From Thiothrix subterranea (GTDB taxonomy: Bacteria > Pseudomonadota > Gammaproteobacteria > Thiotrichales > Thiotrichaceae), in assembly GCF_030930995.1 (NCBI RefSeq), contig NZ_CP133217.1, forward strand, positions 1,850,001-1,914,000: a DNA stretch of 64,000 nt. Direction: 5' to 3'. This document shows positions 1 to 11,448 of this stretch, in pieces (position 1 is the stretch's first letter; every line of letters starts with the position of its first letter). Both the position numbers and the translations under genes were made by a program. The notes under the pieces are model-generated. The model was not told the DNA's origin and did no database searches. It was given only the letters and a program-made list of their open reading frames with translations.

Positions 1-1
1 G

Positions 2-592
2 CATTTTTCGATTAATCAAAATCAAGGCAATACCAACCTGCTGGAGGCTCGCTTAATTGCGTTGACCTTGGTGGAAATAAACCGCCAACTAGAGGTAAGT
101 GGGGAATATGGCAAAAATAATAAATTGAAAGTCGGCATAGTCTCTTTCTATCAACCCCAGTGTCGGAGCATTCGTGATGAGATTCGCAGTGTCAATAATC
201 GACAACTGAGCTTCAGTGCTATTGATGTGGAAATCAACACCGTCATTCGTTATCAAGGTAAAGAAAAGCCGATTATCTTGCTCAGTTTGGTGAAAAATAA
301 CGGCGGCGATCTTAACCAAAAATTCCACGCTGGAAGAGCTAACATCGCACGATTTGAATTTATCAATGTGGCAATGTCTCGGGCACAGAATTTGTTGTTG
401 GTGTTTGGGGCAAGAAATATGTTGGAAAATCGGGAAGTGAAATTGCCGAGAATGGATAGACAAGGCTATGACAAGAAAATGGTTTACAAACAAATGTTTG
501 GGTATTTGGAGCATCAAACCGAAACAGGTGGTTTATGCGAAGCCGCAGAATTTGCCCAAACCTTACCAATTTTCAATAACCCGAAAAAATAG
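2..592 (+). CDS. SF1 helicase/ATPase, C-terminal part (partial)
   Basis: The frame is open to the left edge of the window, so only the last 196 residues are seen. The visible part resembles the C-terminal RecA-like lobe of UvrD/Dna2/Nam7-type superfamily 1 helicases (AAA_12). It has a segment 'VGIVSFYQPQ', a motif V-like 'VIRYQGKEKPIILLSLV' that couples nucleotide to substrate binding, and a motif VI-like 'FINVAMSRAQNLLLVFG' carrying the arginine finger. Walker A and B must lie upstream, outside the window. The stop is 9 bases before the next gene, so this is probably the first visible gene of a five-gene operon. Base composition is AT-rich relative to the housekeeping genes further right. 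The helicase assignment is fair; the substrate (RNA or DNA) is unknown. Confidence 0.75.
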   Translation, partial: HFSINQNQGNTNLLEARLIALTLVEINRQLEVSGEYGKNNKLKVGIVSFYQPQCRSIRDEIRSVNNRQLSFSAIDVEINTVIRYQGKEKPIILLSLVKNNGGDLNQKFHAGRANIARFEFINVAMSRAQNLLLVFGARNMLENREVKLPRMDRQGYDKKMVYKQMFGYLEHQTETGGLCEAAEFAQTLPIFNNPKK

Positions 593-601
593 AGATAAGA
601 T

Positions 602-2902
602 ATGACTGATAAAATTTTAAGCCAGTCGACCTTCTTCTATCCGATTCCTCAGGTGACTGCCACTTTCCGTTACCGCAAAGTTGGCACGCCAACGGTATTT
701 GATGAATTGGTAATGAGCCTTGCCAATGATTTTCCGACGCTTACCAACAACAGCCTTGGGCAAATTGCCAAAATGATGCAAATTGATCCGATTTTCTTGC
801 AACACACGTTAAGTACGTTGGTTGACCTTGAAGTATTGGAAAAAAGTTATTTTGATAATAAGCTAGAAAACGTGAAAATATTGGAATTGAAATTAACCAA
901 AGTTGGGCAAGATTTTTATCGCAGAAAACAGATGCCAGGACGTCGTCATAGCAAAAGCGAAATTTTCTTTTTCAATCCCCTAAGTCAAACCTACGAAAAA
1001 CCACCGAAAATCAGTCATTCTGCGGGTAACTTAACCCTGAACGAATCGTTGTTTGCAATAAATGAAGATATGTTGCAGGTATTAAGTTCTCAAGCGGGGG
1101 GGAAATTAACTTGGTTTACTGTAGACGTAGAACTGGAACCAAATGGTATTTCACACAAATTTGACCAAACCCAATGGCAAAGCGTAAAGGTCAAGCTTTC
1201 GCTTGATCAGAATCGTTATTTACATATTTCAAGCGACGACAAGCTATTTGGACAATGGCTAGCCGAACGTTCTGCTAGTGTGCTTCGGGAACACTTGCTT
1301 CGTCCGCTCATGGTGAACGCAGAGCAAGAAATTATAACCAATAAACAGCTTCAGTATGACGATAACGAGCTGCGTTCTTTGGTGCTGGCTGATCAGCTAT
1401 CGGATTTGAGTCCGGTCAAAAATGCGATTGCGGTGAAATTTTCTGATAAGCAAGAAATCAACGAAAATTCTCCTTTTGTGGTGTTTGATGCCTCTCTTGA
1501 TGAAGCTGGATTAAACGGAAAGCATCTTTCTATTCCGTATAAAGAAGATGTTTCGGACTATATAAATCAACTATTTTTCCAATTTCAAAGCCGAAAAGTG
1601 TTTGTAGAATCGAAAGGCTATTTGCTCACTTATTTTGATCATCAACCACAAAATTTACCAGTCAAAATTTTAACAGAATCAGAGTCTGGTTGGATTCAAG
1701 ACTTACTAGCGTTTCAACAGCCAAATTTAGATACTTTGGTCTTTATGGCAAATTTTATCAGTGAAGACGAACTAGTCGCAAAACTGCCAACAATGAGCGT
1801 TACTAAAGCTGATATTTTTCACCAACGTATTCAGGAAACGTGGAATAAGAATTTTGTACCAGAAAGCTGGGCTGAAAAAATCAGTGTGCTGATCAACGAA
1901 GATGAATTAGCAACTTTTACCAAGCTTTTCCCGAAAGTACCACTTCGTTTGTCACGATTTGCCCGAATCTTCCAAGGAAAGCTGTTGGATAATGCCTTAG
2001 AGAATCAGAGTGTACAAGCCGTAAAAGTTTCTGAGTTTGCTGACATATTGAAAGCAACACAGGCGTTGCAAAAATTGGATGCTGGAAAAATTTATCTTAA
2101 TACCGTGAATGTGGAAACATTAACGAAGGTGCAAGCGTGGCAAGCAATCTATGCTGATTTTAACCGGACTGTCTTACAATCATCTAGCGTGTTATCTAAG
2201 AAAGCCGAGAATTTCAGTGATTGGCGGAATCGAGTTAGAGAGCTGTTTGAACCATTCCAGGTAGAGCGGAAATTTGCGGTATTGGATACTAATTTTGTAA
2301 TGAATAAACCCAAAAAATTGGCAGAGATTCAAACACAGCGCACGGTAATTCTGCCAAAAACCGTGATCTATGAGTTAGATAAATTGAAGCAAACCAATCA
2401 GAAAGAAATGAATGAGGCTAAAAATAAATTGGATCAAGTTCAACCGACTGTGGAAGCCGAACAGCAAAAGATGGGTGAACTGACTCGAAATATTATCGCG
2501 ATAAATACCAAGCTGCTAGAGCGAGATCAATTATCCGAAGCTGAAATCAAGGTATTAAAAAATGAAAAAACCGTTTTAGAAAAGCAAAAACAGACAATCG
2601 AGAAAGACTGGATAAAAGCAGAAAACAATCAAACCAAGCTTAGCCAAGACATTGATCAATTGAAAGAAAAAGGCTACAAGATTCGTGAAGCATTACGAAA
2701 AATTGAGGAGTTAAAGCTTGCTGAGCATTCGCAATCAGAAAGTCCTGCAATTTTAGCAATGGTAGTAGAGCAGGAAAAAATGGTGGCAGATGACAAGATT
2801 TTATCGATTGCTGCTCGCTATAAATTAAATGATGTTGTGCTTTATACTGAAGATAGGAATTTAAAAAGCAAAGCAACATCGATTGGGATTAAAACCGCTT
2901 AG
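602..2902 (+). CDS. PIN-domain protein with coiled-coil insertion
   Basis: This is a 766-residue protein. The N-terminal ~120 residues look like a winged-helix-type module (helical, 'NSLGQIAKMMQIDPIFLQHTL'). The middle is of no family I recognise. From about residue 558 a PIN nuclease fold begins with 'FAVLDTNFVMN' (first acidic residue D562) and 'VIYELDKLK'. It is interrupted by a long Glu/Lys/Gln-rich coiled coil (about 595-710) and resumes with 'ILSIAARYKLNDVVLYTEDRNLKSKA' near the C-terminus, which supplies the last conserved Asp residues. PIN domains are metal-dependent RNases; activity here is inferred from the retained acidic residues. The gene sits 9 bases after the helicase gene and 9 before the next, so it is co-transcribed. 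A coiled coil inside a PIN fold is unusual. Confidence 0.7.
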   Translation: MTDKILSQSTFFYPIPQVTATFRYRKVGTPTVFDELVMSLANDFPTLTNNSLGQIAKMMQIDPIFLQHTLSTLVDLEVLEKSYFDNKLENVKILELKLTKVGQDFYRRKQMPGRRHSKSEIFFFNPLSQTYEKPPKISHSAGNLTLNESLFAINEDMLQVLSSQAGGKLTWFTVDVELEPNGISHKFDQTQWQSVKVKLSLDQNRYLHISSDDKLFGQWLAERSASVLREHLLRPLMVNAEQEIITNKQLQYDDNELRSLVLADQLSDLSPVKNAIAVKFSDKQEINENSPFVVFDASLDEAGLNGKHLSIPYKEDVSDYINQLFFQFQSRKVFVESKGYLLTYFDHQPQNLPVKILTESESGWIQDLLAFQQPNLDTLVFMANFISEDELVAKLPTMSVTKADIFHQRIQETWNKNFVPESWAEKISVLINEDELATFTKLFPKVPLRLSRFARIFQGKLLDNALENQSVQAVKVSEFADILKATQALQKLDAGKIYLNTVNVETLTKVQAWQAIYADFNRTVLQSSSVLSKKAENFSDWRNRVRELFEPFQVERKFAVLDTNFVMNKPKKLAEIQTQRTVILPKTVIYELDKLKQTNQKEMNEAKNKLDQVQPTVEAEQQKMGELTRNIIAINTKLLERDQLSEAEIKVLKNEKTVLEKQKQTIEKDWIKAENNQTKLSQDIDQLKEKGYKIREALRKIEELKLAEHSQSESPAILAMVVEQEKMVADDKILSIAARYKLNDVVLYTEDRNLKSKATSIGIKTA

Positions 2903-2911
2903 GAGTAAAAT

Positions 2912-4033
2912 ATGAGTGCTTGGCACGACAGGCAATATCAATTAGCGCGTGAGCGAGAAATTCGAGCAGCGGCTCATCGAGCGAGAGTCGTAGCGGTGGA
3001 AGAAAACAATGAAAGTTTTTTACATCGTTATGAAGATATTCTGAATGATTTGGTTGCTGATGGTCTCGAAGAGTTTATGGCAAGCGAATTTGCTTATGTG
3101 CGCAGTGAGATTCACAGAATTCGCTACGCTAGTGATGCTTTTGCAGCGAGAAATTGGAGCGTACAACTTGGACAGCGAATGCGTACATTACCACGCCAAG
3201 CTCGTGAGCAAAAATGGATTGCAGAAGAACACGAACGCCTACAACGAGAAGAAGCTGCTCATAAAGCAGAACGCCAAGCAGCAAAACTTCAAGCCGAAAA
3301 AGAAACTGCTTGGACGACGGCAACCAGCAACTGGGAAAATAAGTTAGCACGTAACTTGGCATTTAAGGCATTAGCTGAATTGCGTCAGCGAGTATTGATT
3401 GAAAATCTGAGCGTGGCACAGATGCAGCAAGCCATTGCACAAATCAAGCAACAAGCCGAAGTACAAGCAAGGAAAACGCAGCAAGAATTTAACCAAACTG
3501 TGCAAGCGGAAGCAGTGCAAACGGAAAAGGCAGAATTGGTTAAATCTGTGGAATCGGCTAATTTACCGTTGACGCAGACCGAACTAATGAAACAAAAAAT
3601 TGCGGCAGCAAGTTGGGAAAATTTGGCTGAAATCACCCAAGAAACGAATGTGGTGCAAGATGATGCAGTCGAGAACGAAGCCGTTCGCAAAGAGATGGTC
3701 AAAGCCGTGTATCAATCCTTAAAGCAAGCAGGATTTACGGTCTTGCCGCCTGTGAAGCAAACCAACAGCGAAAATGATATTGTATTGATCCAAGCCAGCC
3801 GCCCATCGGGCAATCAAGCGAGATTTCGGATTAAATTAGATGGTTCAGTGCGTTATGAATTTGACAATTACAAAGGACAACATTGTAAAAAAGATATGGA
3901 TCAGGTCTTGCCGAAGTTGTCGGAAATTTATGGGGTAAATTTATCCAAAGAGCGAGTGATTTGGGAAAACCCTGATGATGAAAAAATGGATGCGAAACCA
4001 ATTAGTCCAATTCACACAACACGCGCACGTTAG
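2912..4033 (+). CDS. Coiled-coil protein of unknown function
   Basis: This is a 373-residue protein. Residues ~1-250 are rich in Arg, Glu, Ala and Gln and form long predicted coiled coils ('REREIRAAAHRARVVAVEE', then 'HERLQREEAAHKAERQAAK'). The last ~110 residues are a compact domain containing 'IKLDGSVRYEFDNYKGQHC' and ending near 'ERVIWENPDDE'. I do not recognise the family. No membrane segment or signal peptide is visible, so it is probably cytoplasmic and may act as a scaffold. It lies 9 bases after the PIN gene and 15 before the AAA+ gene in the same operon. Function is unassigned; the coiled-coil call is by composition and heptad appearance. Confidence 0.6.
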   Translation: MSAWHDRQYQLAREREIRAAAHRARVVAVEENNESFLHRYEDILNDLVADGLEEFMASEFAYVRSEIHRIRYASDAFAARNWSVQLGQRMRTLPRQAREQKWIAEEHERLQREEAAHKAERQAAKLQAEKETAWTTATSNWENKLARNLAFKALAELRQRVLIENLSVAQMQQAIAQIKQQAEVQARKTQQEFNQTVQAEAVQTEKAELVKSVESANLPLTQTELMKQKIAAASWENLAEITQETNVVQDDAVENEAVRKEMVKAVYQSLKQAGFTVLPPVKQTNSENDIVLIQASRPSGNQARFRIKLDGSVRYEFDNYKGQHCKKDMDQVLPKLSEIYGVNLSKERVIWENPDDEKMDAKPISPIHTTRAR

Positions 4034-4048
4034 CCGCTAGGAGCAAAA

Positions 4049-5884
4049 ATGAATGAACATGTCAGCAGTTGGCTCGAAAGTTTTGAACGTCAGGCAATGA
4101 TTCGCCGCGCGTTGATGGTCAGCGGTAATATCATTGATTTGGCGTTTAACCGCCATAATCGCTTGATGCCGATTAATCGGGTAATAGAAGACAGTTTAAA
4201 AGCACAAGGCTTTTCACAAGTCGTTTTTTATTCTCGTTTGTCTGGCGTATCGGGTATTACGTCAAATGAATGGAATGATTTAACTCAAATAGGAATCCAA
4301 GGCGAACAAGGCGATTCCTATGATTTTGATGATGATCTCGAAACTCAAAATAGTGTTTCCAATAAGGGAAGGATTCCTATTGAACCGCAAAATTTCTTTG
4401 CTGTTGTGGAACAAGTGATGACCAAGACACAAAAACGAGTAGTGTTTGTGGTAGATTGGTCAAACTACCTGTTTGGACAAGTCAATGCATTAAGCGAAAC
4501 CGAACGAGCTTGGCTGCAACAAATTGCGACGAGTTTGCGGGATGCCGAGCAGACCAGTGGTGTCGAAGCGATGAGCCAACCGCAAAGTCTACTGATTTTC
4601 TTGTGTTCAGGCAATGCAGCCTTGCCGCCGTCTGCTTATTTAAATAATCCGTTGTTTGCAGAAATTTCGATTCCACTGCCAAGTATCCAAGAGCGTGAAG
4701 CAGCGATTTTAGCTCGCTTCATGCAGTTTAATGTGCTCGGTAATTTAAGTGCAGGTAGTAAAGATTTAGCGGATTTTGTTACATTGACCGATACGCTGAC
4801 GCTGCGAGACATTGACAATTTGGCACGCCTGTCTCGACAACAAGAAACGCAATTGAATTTGCAGAATTTGATTTCGCTTTATCGCTTTGGTAAACGCCAA
4901 TCACCGTGGGAAAAATTGAACTACCAACGATTGAAAGAAACAGCCAGCACGTTGCAGAAGCGAGTCAAAGGGCAAGATCAGGCGATTGAAGCAGTCAATA
5001 AAATTTTGATACGTGCTTACACTGGTTTATCAGGTTTGCAGCACTCTATCAAAGCACGCACACCAAAAGGGGCATTGTTTTTCGTTGGGCCAACGGGTGT
5101 AGGCAAAACAGAATTGGCTAAATCCTTGGCGCAGTTCTTATTTGGTGATGAAGATGCTTGTATTCGCTTTGATATGTCGGAATTTAACCACGAACACGCC
5201 GACCAGCGTTTAGTCGGTGCTCCACCTGGATATGTTGGTTTTGAGGAAGGTGGTCAGCTAACAAATGCGGTGAAAAAACGACCATTTTCGTTGCTATTAT
5301 TCGATGAAATTGAAAAGGCACATCCACGCATCTTAGATAAATTCTTGCAGATCTTGGAGGATGGGCGGTTAACTGATGGTAAAGGCGAAACTATTTCCTT
5401 TGCGGACACCTTTATTGTCTTTACATCGAATATCGGTGCGGCACAGATTCAGCCTGACACACATGACACGGTTTCTGAAAAGTTTAAGCAAGCAGTGCAA
5501 AATCATTTTAGAGATGTGTTAAATCGCCCCGAATTACTTGGACGAATTGGCGAAGCTAATATTATTCCGTTTAACTTTATGCAAGACCCTAACGTATTAA
5601 AAGCCATTGCTCGTGCGAAACTCAAACCCTTGACTATACGTTTGAAAGAAAAATGGGGTATTGAGAAACTAGTGTTTGCTGATGAAGAACGTGCGTTAGA
5701 TGTATTGGTGAAGCAAGTTAATCTGCAACACGGTGGTCGTGGTGTGTTAAATGTGTTAACCAAATCTTTATTTGATCCATTGGCTGAATTCTTATTTGAG
5801 CAAGGCGAACAGCCGCAACGCTTAAAAGGACGTACCTTAGTTATCGAGCAAGCGGGAAAAACCTTTGATTTTGAGCTGAACTGA
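4049..5884 (+). CDS. ClpB/ClpA-like AAA+ ATPase
   Basis: This is a 611-residue protein. The C-terminal half is a ClpA/B D2-type AAA+ module. Walker A 'FFVGPTGVGKTEL' lies at about 345-357, followed by the pore-loop region 'GAPPGYVGFEEGG', Walker B 'LLLFDEIEKAHP' at about 411-422, sensor 1 'FTSNIG' and an arginine-finger segment 'NRPELLGRIG' near 490. The N-terminal ~300 residues contain a degenerate AAA-like region ('VVFVVDWSNYLFGQ', 'LLIFLCSGN') without a Walker A, so probably one active ATPase ring. The Clp N-domain and the ClpP-binding loop are not apparent. Family members thread or remodel proteins. The TGA stop overlaps the ATG of the radical SAM gene by one base (TGATG), which indicates translational coupling. 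Confidence 0.8.
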   Translation: MNEHVSSWLESFERQAMIRRALMVSGNIIDLAFNRHNRLMPINRVIEDSLKAQGFSQVVFYSRLSGVSGITSNEWNDLTQIGIQGEQGDSYDFDDDLETQNSVSNKGRIPIEPQNFFAVVEQVMTKTQKRVVFVVDWSNYLFGQVNALSETERAWLQQIATSLRDAEQTSGVEAMSQPQSLLIFLCSGNAALPPSAYLNNPLFAEISIPLPSIQEREAAILARFMQFNVLGNLSAGSKDLADFVTLTDTLTLRDIDNLARLSRQQETQLNLQNLISLYRFGKRQSPWEKLNYQRLKETASTLQKRVKGQDQAIEAVNKILIRAYTGLSGLQHSIKARTPKGALFFVGPTGVGKTELAKSLAQFLFGDEDACIRFDMSEFNHEHADQRLVGAPPGYVGFEEGGQLTNAVKKRPFSLLLFDEIEKAHPRILDKFLQILEDGRLTDGKGETISFADTFIVFTSNIGAAQIQPDTHDTVSEKFKQAVQNHFRDVLNRPELLGRIGEANIIPFNFMQDPNVLKAIARAKLKPLTIRLKEKWGIEKLVFADEERALDVLVKQVNLQHGGRGVLNVLTKSLFDPLAEFLFEQGEQPQRLKGRTLVIEQAGKTFDFELN

Positions 5885-6453
5885 TGCACTGGCTAAATAT
5901 TGCACACATTATCGAAGCAACCCAAGCCGAAGGACCTGGATTGCGTTTTGTGGTGTGGGTACAAGGTTGCTTAAAGCGTTGCAAAGGTTGTTGTAATGTA
6001 AATTTATTACAGATTAAACCTGCTAGTTTAGTGCGTTCAGGGGATATTATTGAGCGGCTAAAAAATGTAGCTCAACAATATGACTTAGAAGGCATAACTT
6101 TTTTAGGGGGTGAACCACTATTGCAAGCTGAAGGGTTAGCTGATATAGCAGAGGCAGCGCAGAAATTAGGCTTATCAGTAATGGTTTTTTCAGGTTATGA
6201 AAAAGTTGAATTAGTCGAAAGCCGATTTATTGGCAGCCAACGACTACTTAATGCGACAGATCTACTGATTGATGGCGAATTTGACAATACGCAAATTGAA
6301 ACCGTGCGAAATTGGGTGGGATCGACTAATCAAAACATTCACTATTTAACTAATCGCTATTCACCCGAAATTGAAATCCGAGAATTAACTGTAACTAATG
6401 AGTGGCGGATTCATTTGCATGGGAGGATTAGTGGAAATGGGCTACCTTTTTAA
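5884..6453 (+). CDS. NrdG-like radical SAM activase
   Basis: This is a 189-residue radical SAM protein of the activating-enzyme type (Fer4_12/NrdG-like). The early motif 'VQGCLKRCKGCCN' gives Cx3Cx2C for a [4Fe-4S] cluster that cleaves S-adenosylmethionine. 'GITFLGGEPLLQ' is the SAM-binding GGEP motif. NrdG enzymes install a glycyl radical on anaerobic ribonucleotide reductase, but no nrdD lies here. The gene is instead translationally coupled to the ClpB-like ATPase gene, so its substrate may be another operon protein or a nucleotide; this is inference. It is the last gene of the operon; a convergent gene ends 58 bases downstream. Confidence 0.8.
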   Translation: MHWLNIAHIIEATQAEGPGLRFVVWVQGCLKRCKGCCNVNLLQIKPASLVRSGDIIERLKNVAQQYDLEGITFLGGEPLLQAEGLADIAEAAQKLGLSVMVFSGYEKVELVESRFIGSQRLLNATDLLIDGEFDNTQIETVRNWVGSTNQNIHYLTNRYSPEIEIRELTVTNEWRIHLHGRISGNGLPF

Positions 6454-6511: not shown

Positions 6512-7495
6512 TTAAAACTCTATGGATAAATTAGAATATTGAGATATAGTTAATTTATCTAAGTTTACTTTCCTTAATCCAAGATTTAAACATGTTGGCA
6601 ATTCTCCTAATGTAAACTTAACGAGTGGATTTGCTCCGAGATTTAATCTTCTTAGTGCCATAGAATTAACTTCGAACTCTTTAATTTTATTTCTATACAA
6701 TGATAGAACCTCAACATTTTTCGGAATCATATTTGCAGAATTAATATCAATGAAATTTTTGTATAAAAATAGAAACCTCAGTTTAACAAGAGTAGTTATA
6801 AAATCTGGAAAATAATCTAATCGACATGCTGATAGATTAATGCTATCTAAACCCGGTGGTAGACATTCTGCATCGATTTTTATATTTTCACATCCTCTTA
6901 AATCGAGTTTTTTCAAATTTTTAGGCAATCTACTAATTGTTAAGTTATTAAGAAACGGACACTCAATACTTTCTAATTTCTCTATTTCTGCTACTTGAGA
7001 GAAAATATAGTCTATTTCTTTCTTTGTTTTATTTTTCAATATATTTTTTGGGTAAGCTCTACTATCCAAAAAACTGATATGTCGAACATTACTACTAGTA
7101 TCAATGTTTAAATCGACAAGACACATTTTAGGTTGATAGCTAAGTCGATCAATATGCAATGGGGTTTTACAAAAAAAGATATTTCCTTCTCGTATTTTAT
7201 CACCATCATACCAATATATAGTTAAAATCTTATTCTTAGCTAAAAAAGAAATTTCTTTTATCAAATAGTCTCTAACTCTCCACTTATCTAAAGGCAAACC
7301 AACAAGATCCCCAAGAATATATATATTGAATTTCAAGCAATGACTTTGTTCGATTAATTTAAAAACATCCTTCAGATCTACTGGCAATAAATCGTCAGAA
7401 CAAATTGAAATAATCAAATAATCTATTTCACTATCATCATTAATAATAAAATTCATTAGCTTTTTACAACTAATACCTTCATACACCGTTGGCAT
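6512..7495 (-). CDS. Leucine-rich-repeat protein
   Basis: This is a 327-residue AT-rich gene. The first ~150 residues are not recognised. From about residue 180 irregular leucine-rich repeats appear ('LPKNLKKLDLRGCENIKID', 'LPPGLDSINLSACRLDYFP', 'IPKNVEVLSLYRNKIKEFE'). No signal peptide or membrane segment is seen, so it is likely cytosolic. It starts 3 bases after the nucleotidyltransferase stop and is the last gene of the minus-strand RiPP-like cluster. LRR domains bind proteins, so it could recognise a maturase partner or a peptide. Its role in the cluster is inferred only from position. Confidence 0.65.
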   Translation of the reverse strand: MPTVYEGISCKKLMNFIINDDSEIDYLIISICSDDLLPVDLKDVFKLIEQSHCLKFNIYILGDLVGLPLDKWRVRDYLIKEISFLAKNKILTIYWYDGDKIREGNIFFCKTPLHIDRLSYQPKMCLVDLNIDTSSNVRHISFLDSRAYPKNILKNKTKKEIDYIFSQVAEIEKLESIECPFLNNLTISRLPKNLKKLDLRGCENIKIDAECLPPGLDSINLSACRLDYFPDFITTLVKLRFLFLYKNFIDINSANMIPKNVEVLSLYRNKIKEFEVNSMALRRLNLGANPLVKFTLGELPTCLNLGLRKVNLDKLTISQYSNLSIEF

Positions 7496-7498
7496 ACA

Positions 7499-8224
7499 TC
7501 ACACAACTATATAGTTAACAAGTTTAGTCACTACATATTTAAAAGCTTCAATATCTAATATGCCTTGACCATTTATAAAATCTCCGATAATCAAAAATGA
7601 TTCATCAGACGTGTAAGCTGAGAGAGCTTTCAACCCTTCTGTTAACTCTCTCGTAAAAACACCATCGTAAAAAAATATTAACAGACACCCACACCTTGAA
7701 ATTAGTTTTATCAAGTTGTTTACTTTTGCCACCAAAAAATCACAGCTAACCATCTTTAAGTCAAGCCTAAATAAATATTCTGACTTTTTAACAACTAAGT
7801 TTAGATAGTATTGGTAAATAAAATAAACTTCACTAGCACTTAAGTTTATTGGTTTTTCCAGTAGAGATGAATGCTCGCCGCTGATTAACATGCCGTTCAT
7901 TTGTACATTATAGAGCACGAATTTATCTATAACACTATAATGAGTCGAAATAATATGTTTGTCGATATGAGGGTGGTTATTTTTAACAATTTTTTCATTG
8001 AAAGACTGAGTTATATTTTCTAATAATGACAGATTATAGCCGTTAGGCTTTTTCTTGAATAACAAGACCATATCAATATCCCATGGCTTGTAATTTTTGA
8101 TTTCTAAATTTCTACCAGCACTACCCCTGAGATATATTGAAACAACAAAATCATATGAAATATTATTAATACTATCAATGTATTCCCTATATATTTCTTG
8201 ATGCTGATCAAAATAACTAGGCAT
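7499..8224 (-). CDS. MNT-type nucleotidyltransferase
   Basis: This is a 241-residue protein. The segment 'YLRGSAGRNLEIKNYKPWDID' (written here as its key residues G-S, then W-D-I-D) matches the GSx(n)DxD signature of the polymerase-beta-like nucleotidyltransferase superfamily, in which the two Asp residues bind metal and NTP. The remainder is helical and could be a HEPN-like partner region. It overlaps the oxygenase gene by 8 bases and is followed 3 bases later by the LRR gene, so it is co-translated with the RiPP-like cluster. It could nucleotidylate the peptide product or confer immunity; neither role is shown by the sequence. A toxin-antitoxin role is an alternative, but no partner is visible. 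Confidence 0.7.
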   Translation of the reverse strand: MPSYFDQHQEIYREYIDSINNISYDFVVSIYLRGSAGRNLEIKNYKPWDIDMVLLFKKKPNGYNLSLLENITQSFNEKIVKNNHPHIDKHIISTHYSVIDKFVLYNVQMNGMLISGEHSSLLEKPINLSASEVYFIYQYYLNLVVKKSEYLFRLDLKMVSCDFLVAKVNNLIKLISRCGCLLIFFYDGVFTRELTEGLKALSAYTSDESFLIIGDFINGQGILDIEAFKYVVTKLVNYIVV

Positions 8225-9041
8225 TATATTTTTTTTTTATAAAAATCTTAATCATTTCAAATATAGAATCCATTTCAGATATAGATGAAACATTTACTTT
8301 AGCAGCATCTACAGTTAGATATGGTAAGTCAGACCTAAGACTACTATTATACTTAGCCAATTCCTTAATAGATTCATTTATAAATTCGTACACTCTTTGT
8401 CTGTTCACACCAATAGCAATATGTGAAGAGTAGGATTCTGTTGAAACGTCATGCCAGACACCTGGTGGTATATACAAAATGTCTCCAGCTTGTGTCTCTA
8501 TTTCATGGAGAACTTGTCTTGACTTTATGTTCTTATGTCCAAACTCATAAACCGGATTATCCTCTACCATACTACCCAGTTTCCACTTTTTAACTCCTTC
8601 AAGTTGATGAGCAAAAATATGATAGAAATCGTAGTGCTCGCTCGCTCCAAGTGAATCCTGATATGAAAAATAACCATTGATTGTAATAGTTGCTTCAGGG
8701 AAATAATTTAAAAACCATTTTTTTAAGCTTTCAAATTCATTAAAAAACCTCCATATTTCTAAAATCTTAATTGTTTTCCCTTGTAGACTTAAATTATCAA
8801 ACTTTGCTTGATCAATTATCTGAGAAAGTCCTTTCGTATTGGACTCTGTATATAAAAAAGGGTTTATAGATCCTCCACGCTCTACAATCCTAAATTGTGG
8901 GAACTCTATATTACTTTTCAGGATATGCGAGATAGGATCTTTTGGGATGACAATATCCATGTTTGATCTAAATTTGTATGGTTTTTTATTCCAATACTCA
9001 TTAAAGAATTCTGATTTATCTATATGGGATAAATAATCCAT
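8217..9041 (-). CDS. JmjC/cupin-4-like Fe(II)/2-oxoglutarate oxygenase
   Basis: This is a 274-residue protein using the ATG at 9041, which overlaps the maturase TGA stop (TGATG) and has an AGGAAAG site 7-9 bases upstream; a longer in-frame start inside the maturase gene is less likely. The motif 'SEHYDFYHIFAHQLEGVKKW' gives the HxD metal pair, and 'GDILYIPPGVWHDVS' gives the distal His, as in the JmjC/Cupin_4 (YcfD/RoxA) hydroxylases that hydroxylate protein side chains with Fe(II), O2 and 2-oxoglutarate. Its position directly after a radical SAM/SPASM maturase and a precursor peptide suggests it hydroxylates the peptide; this is inference. Confidence 0.8.
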   Translation of the reverse strand: MDYLSHIDKSEFFNEYWNKKPYKFRSNMDIVIPKDPISHILKSNIEFPQFRIVERGGSINPFLYTESNTKGLSQIIDQAKFDNLSLQGKTIKILEIWRFFNEFESLKKWFLNYFPEATITINGYFSYQDSLGASEHYDFYHIFAHQLEGVKKWKLGSMVEDNPVYEFGHKNIKSRQVLHEIETQAGDILYIPPGVWHDVSTESYSSHIAIGVNRQRVYEFINESIKELAKYNSSLRSDLPYLTVDAAKVNVSSISEMDSIFEMIKIFIKKKYNA

Positions 9042-10072
9042 CAAATCTTTCCTTCTGTTATACTCAACAGCGATTTTGATATGATAGGGCAACGAGGATC
9101 GCCTTGAGATAAATAACGTCGATTTATGCCGGGACATCCACCCTGACACATACTAAATACCCTACATTGATAACATATTGAGTTCTTATTGGGTAATATA
9201 TTTAAATTTGATAGAGAACCAGCAATACTTTCATAACTATCAATACTCAAATCTCCAATAATATTTTCTTCCATACATGCGCAAGGGTACACTGTGCCAT
9301 TTGGATTTATATACAATTTTGAACGACCAGTACCACAATTCGTTCCCATTACTGACATTTCTTCATTAGAATATTGTACGACTTTAGTTGACGCTATGCT
9401 TCGTATAGAAAACATTGGTTTTATCGATATTCTCTCATAATTAATGAAACTACCAGCTACAGTCTCACAAAGTACGTTCCAGTCAGTTGAAGAAATATCA
9501 TTACCATCATTGGCTCTTCCATACCCAACAATACGCTTAATTTTCCATGATGAAAATGCTATATCTTCTAGATTTTTATCCAAAAAACTTAGGCTATTGA
9601 CATTCTTATTAGATACTGTAGTTGCAACTACAACAGTAAAACCAATCTCTGATAATTTTGTAATATTCTCAAGAGTCTTCCTGTAAGTTTTGAGACCTCT
9701 TATAGATTCGTGAATCTCTCTATCGCCATCTATAGATACTTGAATTTTAACTTTATCTTTAAGATGTTCTATTTTTTCAAGCTTGTGTAAATTTAACCCA
9801 TTAGTGTTTATCATCACACTATCAAATAGATGATATGCCTTTTGTGAAATTTCAATAAATTTAGGATGTAAAGTAGGTTCACCTCCACTTAAAAGCATCT
9901 GGATTTTTTCTGTTTTCGCCGCGAACTCTGCGAATATCTTTTCGCAGAGTTCTAGAGACATAAACTCAGAAAAACTAGGTTCAGAACTTCGAATACAATG
10001 TGAGCAAGTTAAATTACACTTTCTTGTCAGTAGCAAATAGCACTGCTTTAAGAAAAATCTATTTTCTTTCAC
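9041..10072 (-). CDS. Radical SAM/SPASM peptide maturase
   Basis: This is a 343-residue protein with a GTG start at 10072. The N-terminal radical SAM motif is 'CNLTCSHC' (CxxxCxxC, residues ~19-26), with the SAM-binding motif 'LLSGGEPTLHP' near 61-71. The C-terminal part has the SPASM cysteine pattern ('GTNCGTGRSKLYINPNG', 'VYPCACME', 'CYQCRVFSMCQGGCPG') that binds auxiliary [4Fe-4S] clusters. SPASM maturases cross-link or epimerise ribosomally made peptides. A 47-codon Cys/aromatic-ended peptide gene lies 40 bases upstream on the same strand, and an oxygenase gene overlaps downstream. I call it the maturase of a RiPP-like cluster. The chemistry (thioether, C-C cyclophane or other) cannot be read from the sequence. 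Confidence 0.88.
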   Translation of the reverse strand: MKENRFFLKQCYLLLTRKCNLTCSHCIRSSEPSFSEFMSLELCEKIFAEFAAKTEKIQMLLSGGEPTLHPKFIEISQKAYHLFDSVMINTNGLNLHKLEKIEHLKDKVKIQVSIDGDREIHESIRGLKTYRKTLENITKLSEIGFTVVVATTVSNKNVNSLSFLDKNLEDIAFSSWKIKRIVGYGRANDGNDISSTDWNVLCETVAGSFINYERISIKPMFSIRSIASTKVVQYSNEEMSVMGTNCGTGRSKLYINPNGTVYPCACMEENIIGDLSIDSYESIAGSLSNLNILPNKNSICYQCRVFSMCQGGCPGINRRYLSQGDPRCPIISKSLLSITEGKI

Positions 10073-10112
10073 CTTAGTAGAACCTGTTATGCCAAGTCAT
10101 GGATTTGAAAAA

Positions 10113-10256
10113 TTAACATGCATCGGCTTCAAACCATGAACCGAATGAATCGCAGAACTCTTCATTGTTTTCCTGTGAATCTTGCGAGGCTAATAAATCT
10201 GCCAGCAAATAGTCAAAGTTATTATTTTTTGATTCAGACTTATTGATGATTTCCAT
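10113..10256 (-). CDS. Candidate RiPP precursor peptide, 47 aa
   Basis: This is a short gene with ATG at 10256 and TAA at 10113-10115. It is preceded by a good Shine-Dalgarno (AAGGAA, 6 bases before the ATG) and by an AT-rich promoter-like stretch (TATACT near 10283). The peptide has a polar Asn/Ser/Glu-rich start, an 'FDYLLADLLASQD' helix typical of a leader, and a C-terminal segment 'EFCDSFGSWFEADAC' with two Cys (C35, C47) and four aromatics. It is followed 40 bases later by a radical SAM/SPASM maturase on the same strand. Size, leader/core layout and neighbours fit a radical-SAM RiPP precursor. I do not recognise a named family. The core contains three aromatic-x-x triplets (F-C-D, F-G-S, W-F-E). 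Confidence 0.75.
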   Translation of the reverse strand: MEIINKSESKNNNFDYLLADLLASQDSQENNEEFCDSFGSWFEADAC

Positions 10257-10885: not shown

Positions 10886-11057
10886 GGGGCTACCAAAAGC
10901 CTGATAGGTAACGGATTTACCTTCCTTTTGTCAAGGGCGTTTTAATGCGATTGACCTACCCTATGATCTATCGGGGCTTGACATCTTTCATGTGTTGAGG
11001 CGTAGGTGAATTGTTGCAAATTTACGGGCGTTTAGTAAGGGGGTGTGAACAATTACG

Positions 11058-11171
11058 TACACGCGGGTCTTGCGCCAGCTCCATGACGCGGCGGTTAAAG
11101 GCTAGCAGACTGAGTTCACGATTGAGGTAGTAATCGGGGTTATTCAGGTCGGGTGCAGCATTTTCCTGCAT
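11058..11171 (-). pseudogene. 5' fragment of polyphosphate kinase gene (ppk1)
   Basis: Starting at the ATG at 11171, the minus-strand frame reads a short leader and then 'YYLNRELSLLAFNRRVMELA' followed by 'QDPRV'. This is the conserved start of Ppk1, the inner-membrane-associated polyphosphate kinase (normally ~690 residues). After ~38 residues similarity ends abruptly ('RNCSHPLTKRP') and the frame stops at 11022. The rest of the gene is absent to the left, where the ISAs1 remnant begins, so this is a truncation at a mobile-element junction. A complete copy may exist elsewhere. Confidence 0.75.
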
Positions 11172-11448
11172 GATAACATCCTGTTCCGTGTTCGGTAGTG
11201 TTGGTGATGGCGTGCAACCATAGCTGCAAGGTGTGACAGTTTGATGACAGCCTATGCGTATATGGTCATCTTCGCCCAAACGCCAAAAATAGCGTAACGG
11301 TAACGGCGGCAGGTTGATAGGGGCAGTTGTTGTTATTCTCATGATCGACAGTACACTGTGTAATGGTTTTATTGGTATAGTTATACAAGACAGTCACCGA
11401 TCATACACCATGTGGGCTGAATCATAAAAAAATGAGGCATGATTAGAT

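Follow-up and report, generated by a model that had tools for sequence, protein, structure and literature searches.

The 64,000 nucleotides of the Thiothrix subterranea genome analyzed here, referred to below as the window (NZ_CP133217.1, positions 1,850,001 to 1,914,000), carry a short open reading frame followed by genes for putative peptide-modifying enzymes. Five genes are arranged head to tail on the minus strand between positions 10256 and 6512. The first (10113..10256) encodes the precursor peptide of 47 aa and is followed by a radical SAM/SPASM peptide maturase of 343 aa with a GTG start (9041..10072), a JmjC_2 (PF08007) Fe(II)/2-oxoglutarate-type oxygenase of 274 aa (8217..9041), a nucleotidyltransferase (NTase) of 241 aa with an AadA/ANT-like predicted fold (7499..8224), and a leucine-rich-repeat (LRR) protein of 327 aa (6512..7495). 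An initial annotation of this DNA had recognized the first four genes, all of which are present on this strand, but had left out the LRR gene. It had also described a good ribosome site in front of the 47-aa gene, seen here as AAGGA upstream of the ATG, and intact motifs in the three enzymes, which were recovered as CNLTCSHC with a full set of SPASM cysteines, HxD...H and GS...DxD. The ATG of the oxygenase at 9041 overlaps the maturase stop codon (TGATG), is preceded by a AAGGAAAG site and matches the start in the relatives; the 310-aa oxygenase frame originally listed (9149-8217) starts too early and was discarded. The oxygenase and NTase genes overlap by 8 nt, and the LRR gene starts 3 bp past the NTase stop. 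Pfam matches were obtained for Radical_SAM (E-value 1.6e-20), SPASM (5.8e-06), JmjC_2 (9.9e-21) and LRR_4 (2.6e-06), while Pfam and NCBIfam searches with the NTase and the precursor gave no family at cut-off, and the maturase, the NTase and the precursor are not covered by any curated family. No PqqD/RRE-like leader-recognition element was found among the Pfam/NCBIfam matches listed for the cluster proteins.

Scanning 84,980 species genomes for the maturase gave two loci, one in Shewanella sp. SG41-4 (64% identity) and one in Colwellia ponticola (46%), both with precursor, maturase, oxygenase, NTase and LRR genes in the same order as in the window; the Shewanella LRR frame is cut by the contig end. 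When relatives were searched with the oxygenase, a further cluster was identified in G289, a genome from another genus of the window's family, where the order is precursor, LRR, oxygenase, maturase and the NTase is missing. This brings the total to four clusters. Only the window's own cluster was found among 369 genomes of the class and 398 of the phylum, and the cluster occurs in two of 63 family genomes. As these searches gave no others, the cluster appears rare, although this is an impression and not a census, since the scan of the whole collection used exact 8-residue patterns and has low sensitivity. Plasmid searches by tblastn gave no true relatives, either with the NTase or with three of the maturases (those of the window, Colwellia and G289). 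The two Actinobacteria matches in these searches were rejected; they are 27% identical, and one is annotated as a mycofactocin maturase. Viral contigs searched with the maturase alignment yielded none, and G052, tried as a route to the Colwellia family, led to an unrelated small family.

The four precursors, of 47, 51, 56 and 53 aa, end in FGSWFEADAC, FGSWFEADAC, FGSWREWD and FGSWREAD, respectively, and each start is preceded by a purine-rich ribosome site. Their N-terminal leaders diverge, whereas the C-terminal core FGSWxExD is common to all four, with F38, G39, S40, W41, E43 and D45 as the invariant residues in the window. Over 11 core codons, pairwise comparisons gave 4-5 synonymous versus 1-4 non-synonymous differences, the latter all outside the fixed positions of FGSWxExD; the excess of synonymous differences is the pattern of a protein sequence under selection. 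When ~850,000 residues translated from the loci were scanned, FGSWxExD was seen in the four precursors alone, which is beyond what chance would give, and a search of the available literature for FGSW together with radical SAM returned nothing. The initial annotation had read the locus as RiPP-like and had proposed a neighbourhood search for a short open reading frame beside related maturases. Such a frame, carrying FGSWxExD, is conserved next to the maturases of the three relatives, which supports that reading. The description of the C-terminus as Cys/aromatic did not hold: two cysteines flank the core in the window (C35 and C47) and Shewanella precursors, but those of Colwellia and G289 have no Cys in or beside it, while F, S, W, E and D are kept. 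Cys was accordingly dropped as a core-defining residue. The core is instead marked by F-G-S and W-x-E, a tandem pair of aromatic-x-acceptor triads.

We consider it probable, at roughly 60%, that the locus is a rare five-gene RiPP-type cluster in which the core would be cross-linked, hydroxylated and, where the NTase is present, nucleotidylated. The maturase, which would act first, has the cysteines C19, C23 and C26 of its CxxxCxxC motif and C246, C264, C266, C300, C303, C309, C313 and C328 of the SPASM region invariant in the four homologues, and with PF04055 and PF13186 above cut-off and the cysteine set complete it belongs to the SPASM maturases. Its best profile and structure matches are SkfB, the closest solved structure, and PapB, and the PqqE and mycofactocin profiles are also among the matches, although none of the NCBIfam models listed reached its cut-off (SkfB 106.9 of 300 bits, PapB 96.8 of 340). 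The scores lie nearer to the SkfB, PapB and mycofactocin profiles than to those of cyclophane maturases, and the enzyme falls outside the curated families YhhB, AmcB, FxsB, GrrM and DynA (DynA 60.9 bits, cut-off 450). For this reason we propose that it works like a cyclophane maturase and refrain from calling it one.

The similarity to PqqE and mycofactocin profiles bears on another explanation, in which the peptide is a PqqA-like scaffold for an excised redox cofactor or signal, with W or F linked to E and the pair hydroxylated and used in the cell. PQQ is cut from PqqA, and in having a precursor, a SPASM enzyme, a non-heme iron oxygenase and no exporter the present cluster resembles the layouts of PQQ and mycofactocin. 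However, the cluster includes no dehydrogenase or other user of a cofactor, six core residues are conserved and not a single pair, and the NTase and LRR protein are without counterpart in PQQ or mycofactocin systems, which makes a cofactor origin unlikely. Slightly more doubtful is a SkfB- or PapB-like maturase that forms a thioether or another non-cyclophane modification through C35 and C47 of the window precursor. That SkfB and PapB are the best matches and that the two flanking cysteines recur in Shewanella would agree with this, but the Colwellia and G289 maturases are homologous and their cores, being Cys-free, offer no core Cys as thioether donor, which speaks against a sactipeptide or ranthipeptide. 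The fixed core could alternatively be bound or cleaved, and not cross-linked.

Cross-linking of the core remains our preferred reading, and a likely form of it is suggested by published cyclophanes. Three-residue cyclophane enzymes join residue i to the beta carbon of residue i+2; MscB forms a Phe C4-Ser C-beta cyclophane, OscB and XncB form Trp-C-beta links, with Asn or Asp as the partner of Trp in the case of OscB (PMC11002830). The present cluster is like these triceptide systems (XncB, OscB, MscB; PMC11002830) in pairing a SPASM radical SAM enzyme with a short precursor containing aromatic-x-acceptor triads, and differs from them in that no NCBIfam cyclophane model is matched at cut-off and in its JmjC_2, NTase and LRR partners. 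Because the F-G-S and W-x-E triads share the i,i+2 spacing of the published cyclophanes, the maturase is expected to make one or two links, each from an aromatic ring to the beta carbon of the residue at i+2 (F38-S40 and/or W41-E43). This is the step of the proposed pathway in which we have most confidence.

The best solved relative of the oxygenase is MINA53. The residues H136, D138 and H197 of the HxD...H motif, together with Y124 and K151, are invariant in the four homologues and align with MINA53, and we take them to be the iron and 2-oxoglutarate ligands, respectively, by equivalence with that protein. With HxD...H and the 2-oxoglutarate-binding residues kept in all four, the enzyme belongs to the JmjC_2 family (PF08007). 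It shares fold family, motif and 2-oxoglutarate residues with the ribosomal oxygenases MINA53, NO66 and RoxA, but is shorter, at 274 aa (the solved chains of MINA, NO66 and L16-hydroxylase have 373-489 aa), and is encoded together with a RiPP precursor. A second, weaker relative of the oxygenase occurs elsewhere in the genome of the window. Following the maturase, the JmjC_2 enzyme would hydroxylate a core side chain with Fe(II) and 2-oxoglutarate, which we rank second in confidence; cross-linking and hydroxylation would both fit the SPASM and JmjC active sites, intact as judged from their residues.

There are precedents for each enzyme pairing, but not for the whole combination. In TvgA-C, a radical SAM enzyme is paired with a 2-oxoglutarate enzyme (TvgB/TvgC; PMC11002830). 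As described in PMC11002830, the poly-cyclopropylglycine cluster TvgABC (PMC9062424) has in common with the present cluster a precursor, a radical SAM enzyme and an Fe/2-oxoglutarate enzyme, and differs in the oxygenase family (IPR018724), the Val-Gly-Gly repeats and the dedicated transporters. In the biphenomycin cluster a JmjC hydroxylase and a radical SAM cross-linker likewise act on one RiPP precursor, with the hydroxylase, BipG, acting at gamma-Orn, but the radical SAM enzyme is B12-dependent, a MNIO and a dedicated protease are present, the core is another, and the description names no NTase or LRR protein (PMC12707348). RiPP-like contexts are also reported for the nearest bacterial homologues of PF08007 proteins fused to an RRE (PMC12710340). 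NTase-like tailoring genes are known from RiPP clusters as well, namely pseudomycoidin PsmN (PMC9266682) and the daptide NTases (PMC10036551), although these belong to lasso peptide and daptide pathways, and PsmN appears to add hexoses to phosphorylated Ser (PMC9266682).

In the NTase, R33-G34-S35, D49, D51, H86 and D88, which include the GS...DxD motif, are invariant in the three homologues. Its AlphaFold model has a mean pLDDT of 66, and Foldseek aligned it over its full length to AAD(9) (E-value 2.7e-06) and, more weakly, to AadA, with TM-scores of ~0.55. At the modest confidence of this model, the predicted fold of an NTase domain and a helical domain resembles that of AadA/ANT adenylyltransferases, and the GS...DxD motif is shared with AadA and ANT(3'')(9); the NTase differs from these in its peptide-cluster setting, its lack of a Pfam match and an identity of only 11-15% in the fold alignments. 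The earlier suggestion that the peptide is perhaps nucleotidylated is thus favored by the catalytic residues kept in three of four clusters and the AadA/ANT-like model, and weakened by the G289 cluster, from which the NTase is missing and which marks it as accessory. Where present, the enzyme may use an NTP to nucleotidylate a hydroxyl of the product, for tailoring or self-protection, a step that we place third in confidence. The LRR gene is present in all four clusters. In its product, an N-terminal alpha/beta domain whose fold is unknown, modelled at low confidence, precedes the LRR fold. The protein might bind the peptide or the target of the peptide, the least confident of the four steps. 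As no protease or exporter was found within the cluster, the peptide may be cleaved by host enzymes, or the product may stay in the cell.

A 15.1-kb island (G000:C2:1845963-1861056) brought the cluster into the ppk locus together with a helicase/PIN/ClpB-like/NrdG-like module. The ppk 5' end bounds the island on either side as a direct repeat of 384 bp, with the right copy at 11057..11440 and the left copy outside the window (G000:C2:1845579-1845962), the two being 97.4% identical. The five sibling genomes examined have one copy, with ppk joined to the downstream flank; in one of them (G277, L037) ~1 kb of other sequence lies further along. On the left side ppk is intact, and no recognizable integrase was observed in the island, where the RiPP cluster and the five-gene module are the only recognizable coding content. 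All module genes are on the plus strand: an SF1-type helicase of 1474 aa, of which the 3' end (1..592) is in the window and the start outside it (L027:11168), a PIN-domain protein (602..2902, Pfam), a 373-aa protein of unknown function (2912..4033) conserved in position in L024, L025, L030-L032, L052 and L053, a ClpB-like AAA+ ATPase (4049..5884), and, as the last gene and convergent with the RiPP cluster, an NrdG-like single-cluster radical SAM protein (5884..6453), the last two assigned by Pfam/NCBIfam. At its start, the helicase frame has some two dozen TSQQP repeats in tandem. Also on L027 (932-6097), an SbcC-like 1721-aa gene contains large, nearly identical internal duplications (~590 bp, 89-91% identity).

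The module adjoins the cluster in Shewanella (L024; co-directional) and Colwellia (L025; convergent) as well, with its outer genes beyond those loci. A strong NrdG-like match was obtained in only three of 369 genomes, the window's own being one and the other two lying on short contigs where the module is not visible; given this rarity, it is unlikely by chance that all three clusters with an NTase adjoin the module, as they do in two orientations. Copies of the module, including the ClpB-like gene, were also found on plasmids of Acinetobacter, Photobacterium, Moellerella, Polaromonas and Leisingera. That the peptide and the module make up one conflict or defence system, with the modified peptide as effector or signal, is nevertheless improbable, for although they share one island and the Acinetobacter and Photobacterium modules (two of five) have other radical SAM genes next to them, the G289 cluster is without the module, those of Polaromonas, Moellerella and Leisingera have no radical SAM neighbour besides their own NrdG-like gene, and PADLOC holds no close model for the module. 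Neither cluster nor module thus needs the other. With the cluster of G289 lying by itself, their pairing is accounted for no less well by a common mobile location than by a common function. Equally improbable is the most far-reaching version of our own reading, a new RiPP class of hydroxylated and nucleotidylated peptides with a bicyclic F-G-S and W-x-E cyclophane, acting inside the cell with the conflict module and read or guarded by the LRR protein.

By itself, the module (window 1-6453 and L027:11168-15592) resembles a conflict or maintenance system that has not been described. On the Photobacterium toruni plasmid (L031, 1446-3679, minus strand), two adjacent radical SAM genes follow a Cys-containing 33-aa frame, MENDKLDDDLIIDEIELTDTAMSCAPGDCNPVN, and these three genes resemble a second, different RiPP-like cluster beside the module. 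On the Acinetobacter plasmid (L030, 14724-16706), the module is followed by genes for a dTMP-kinase-like protein, a MoaA-like radical SAM protein and a 162-aa protein; the radical SAM gene, as annotated, is without an N-terminal CxxxCxxC.

One short, sharply conserved core appears to be the substrate of a SPASM cross-linker, a hydroxylase of the ribosomal-oxygenase type and an enzyme of the antibiotic-nucleotidyltransferase type. If the proposed chemistry is true, genome mining would gain FGSWxExD as a new core motif, PF08007 oxygenases would be tied to the tailoring of peptides in clusters small enough to test, and each enzyme would have a simple 8-residue substrate. That the cluster travels with a rare mobile module also raises the question of whether bacterial conflict systems make use of modified peptides.
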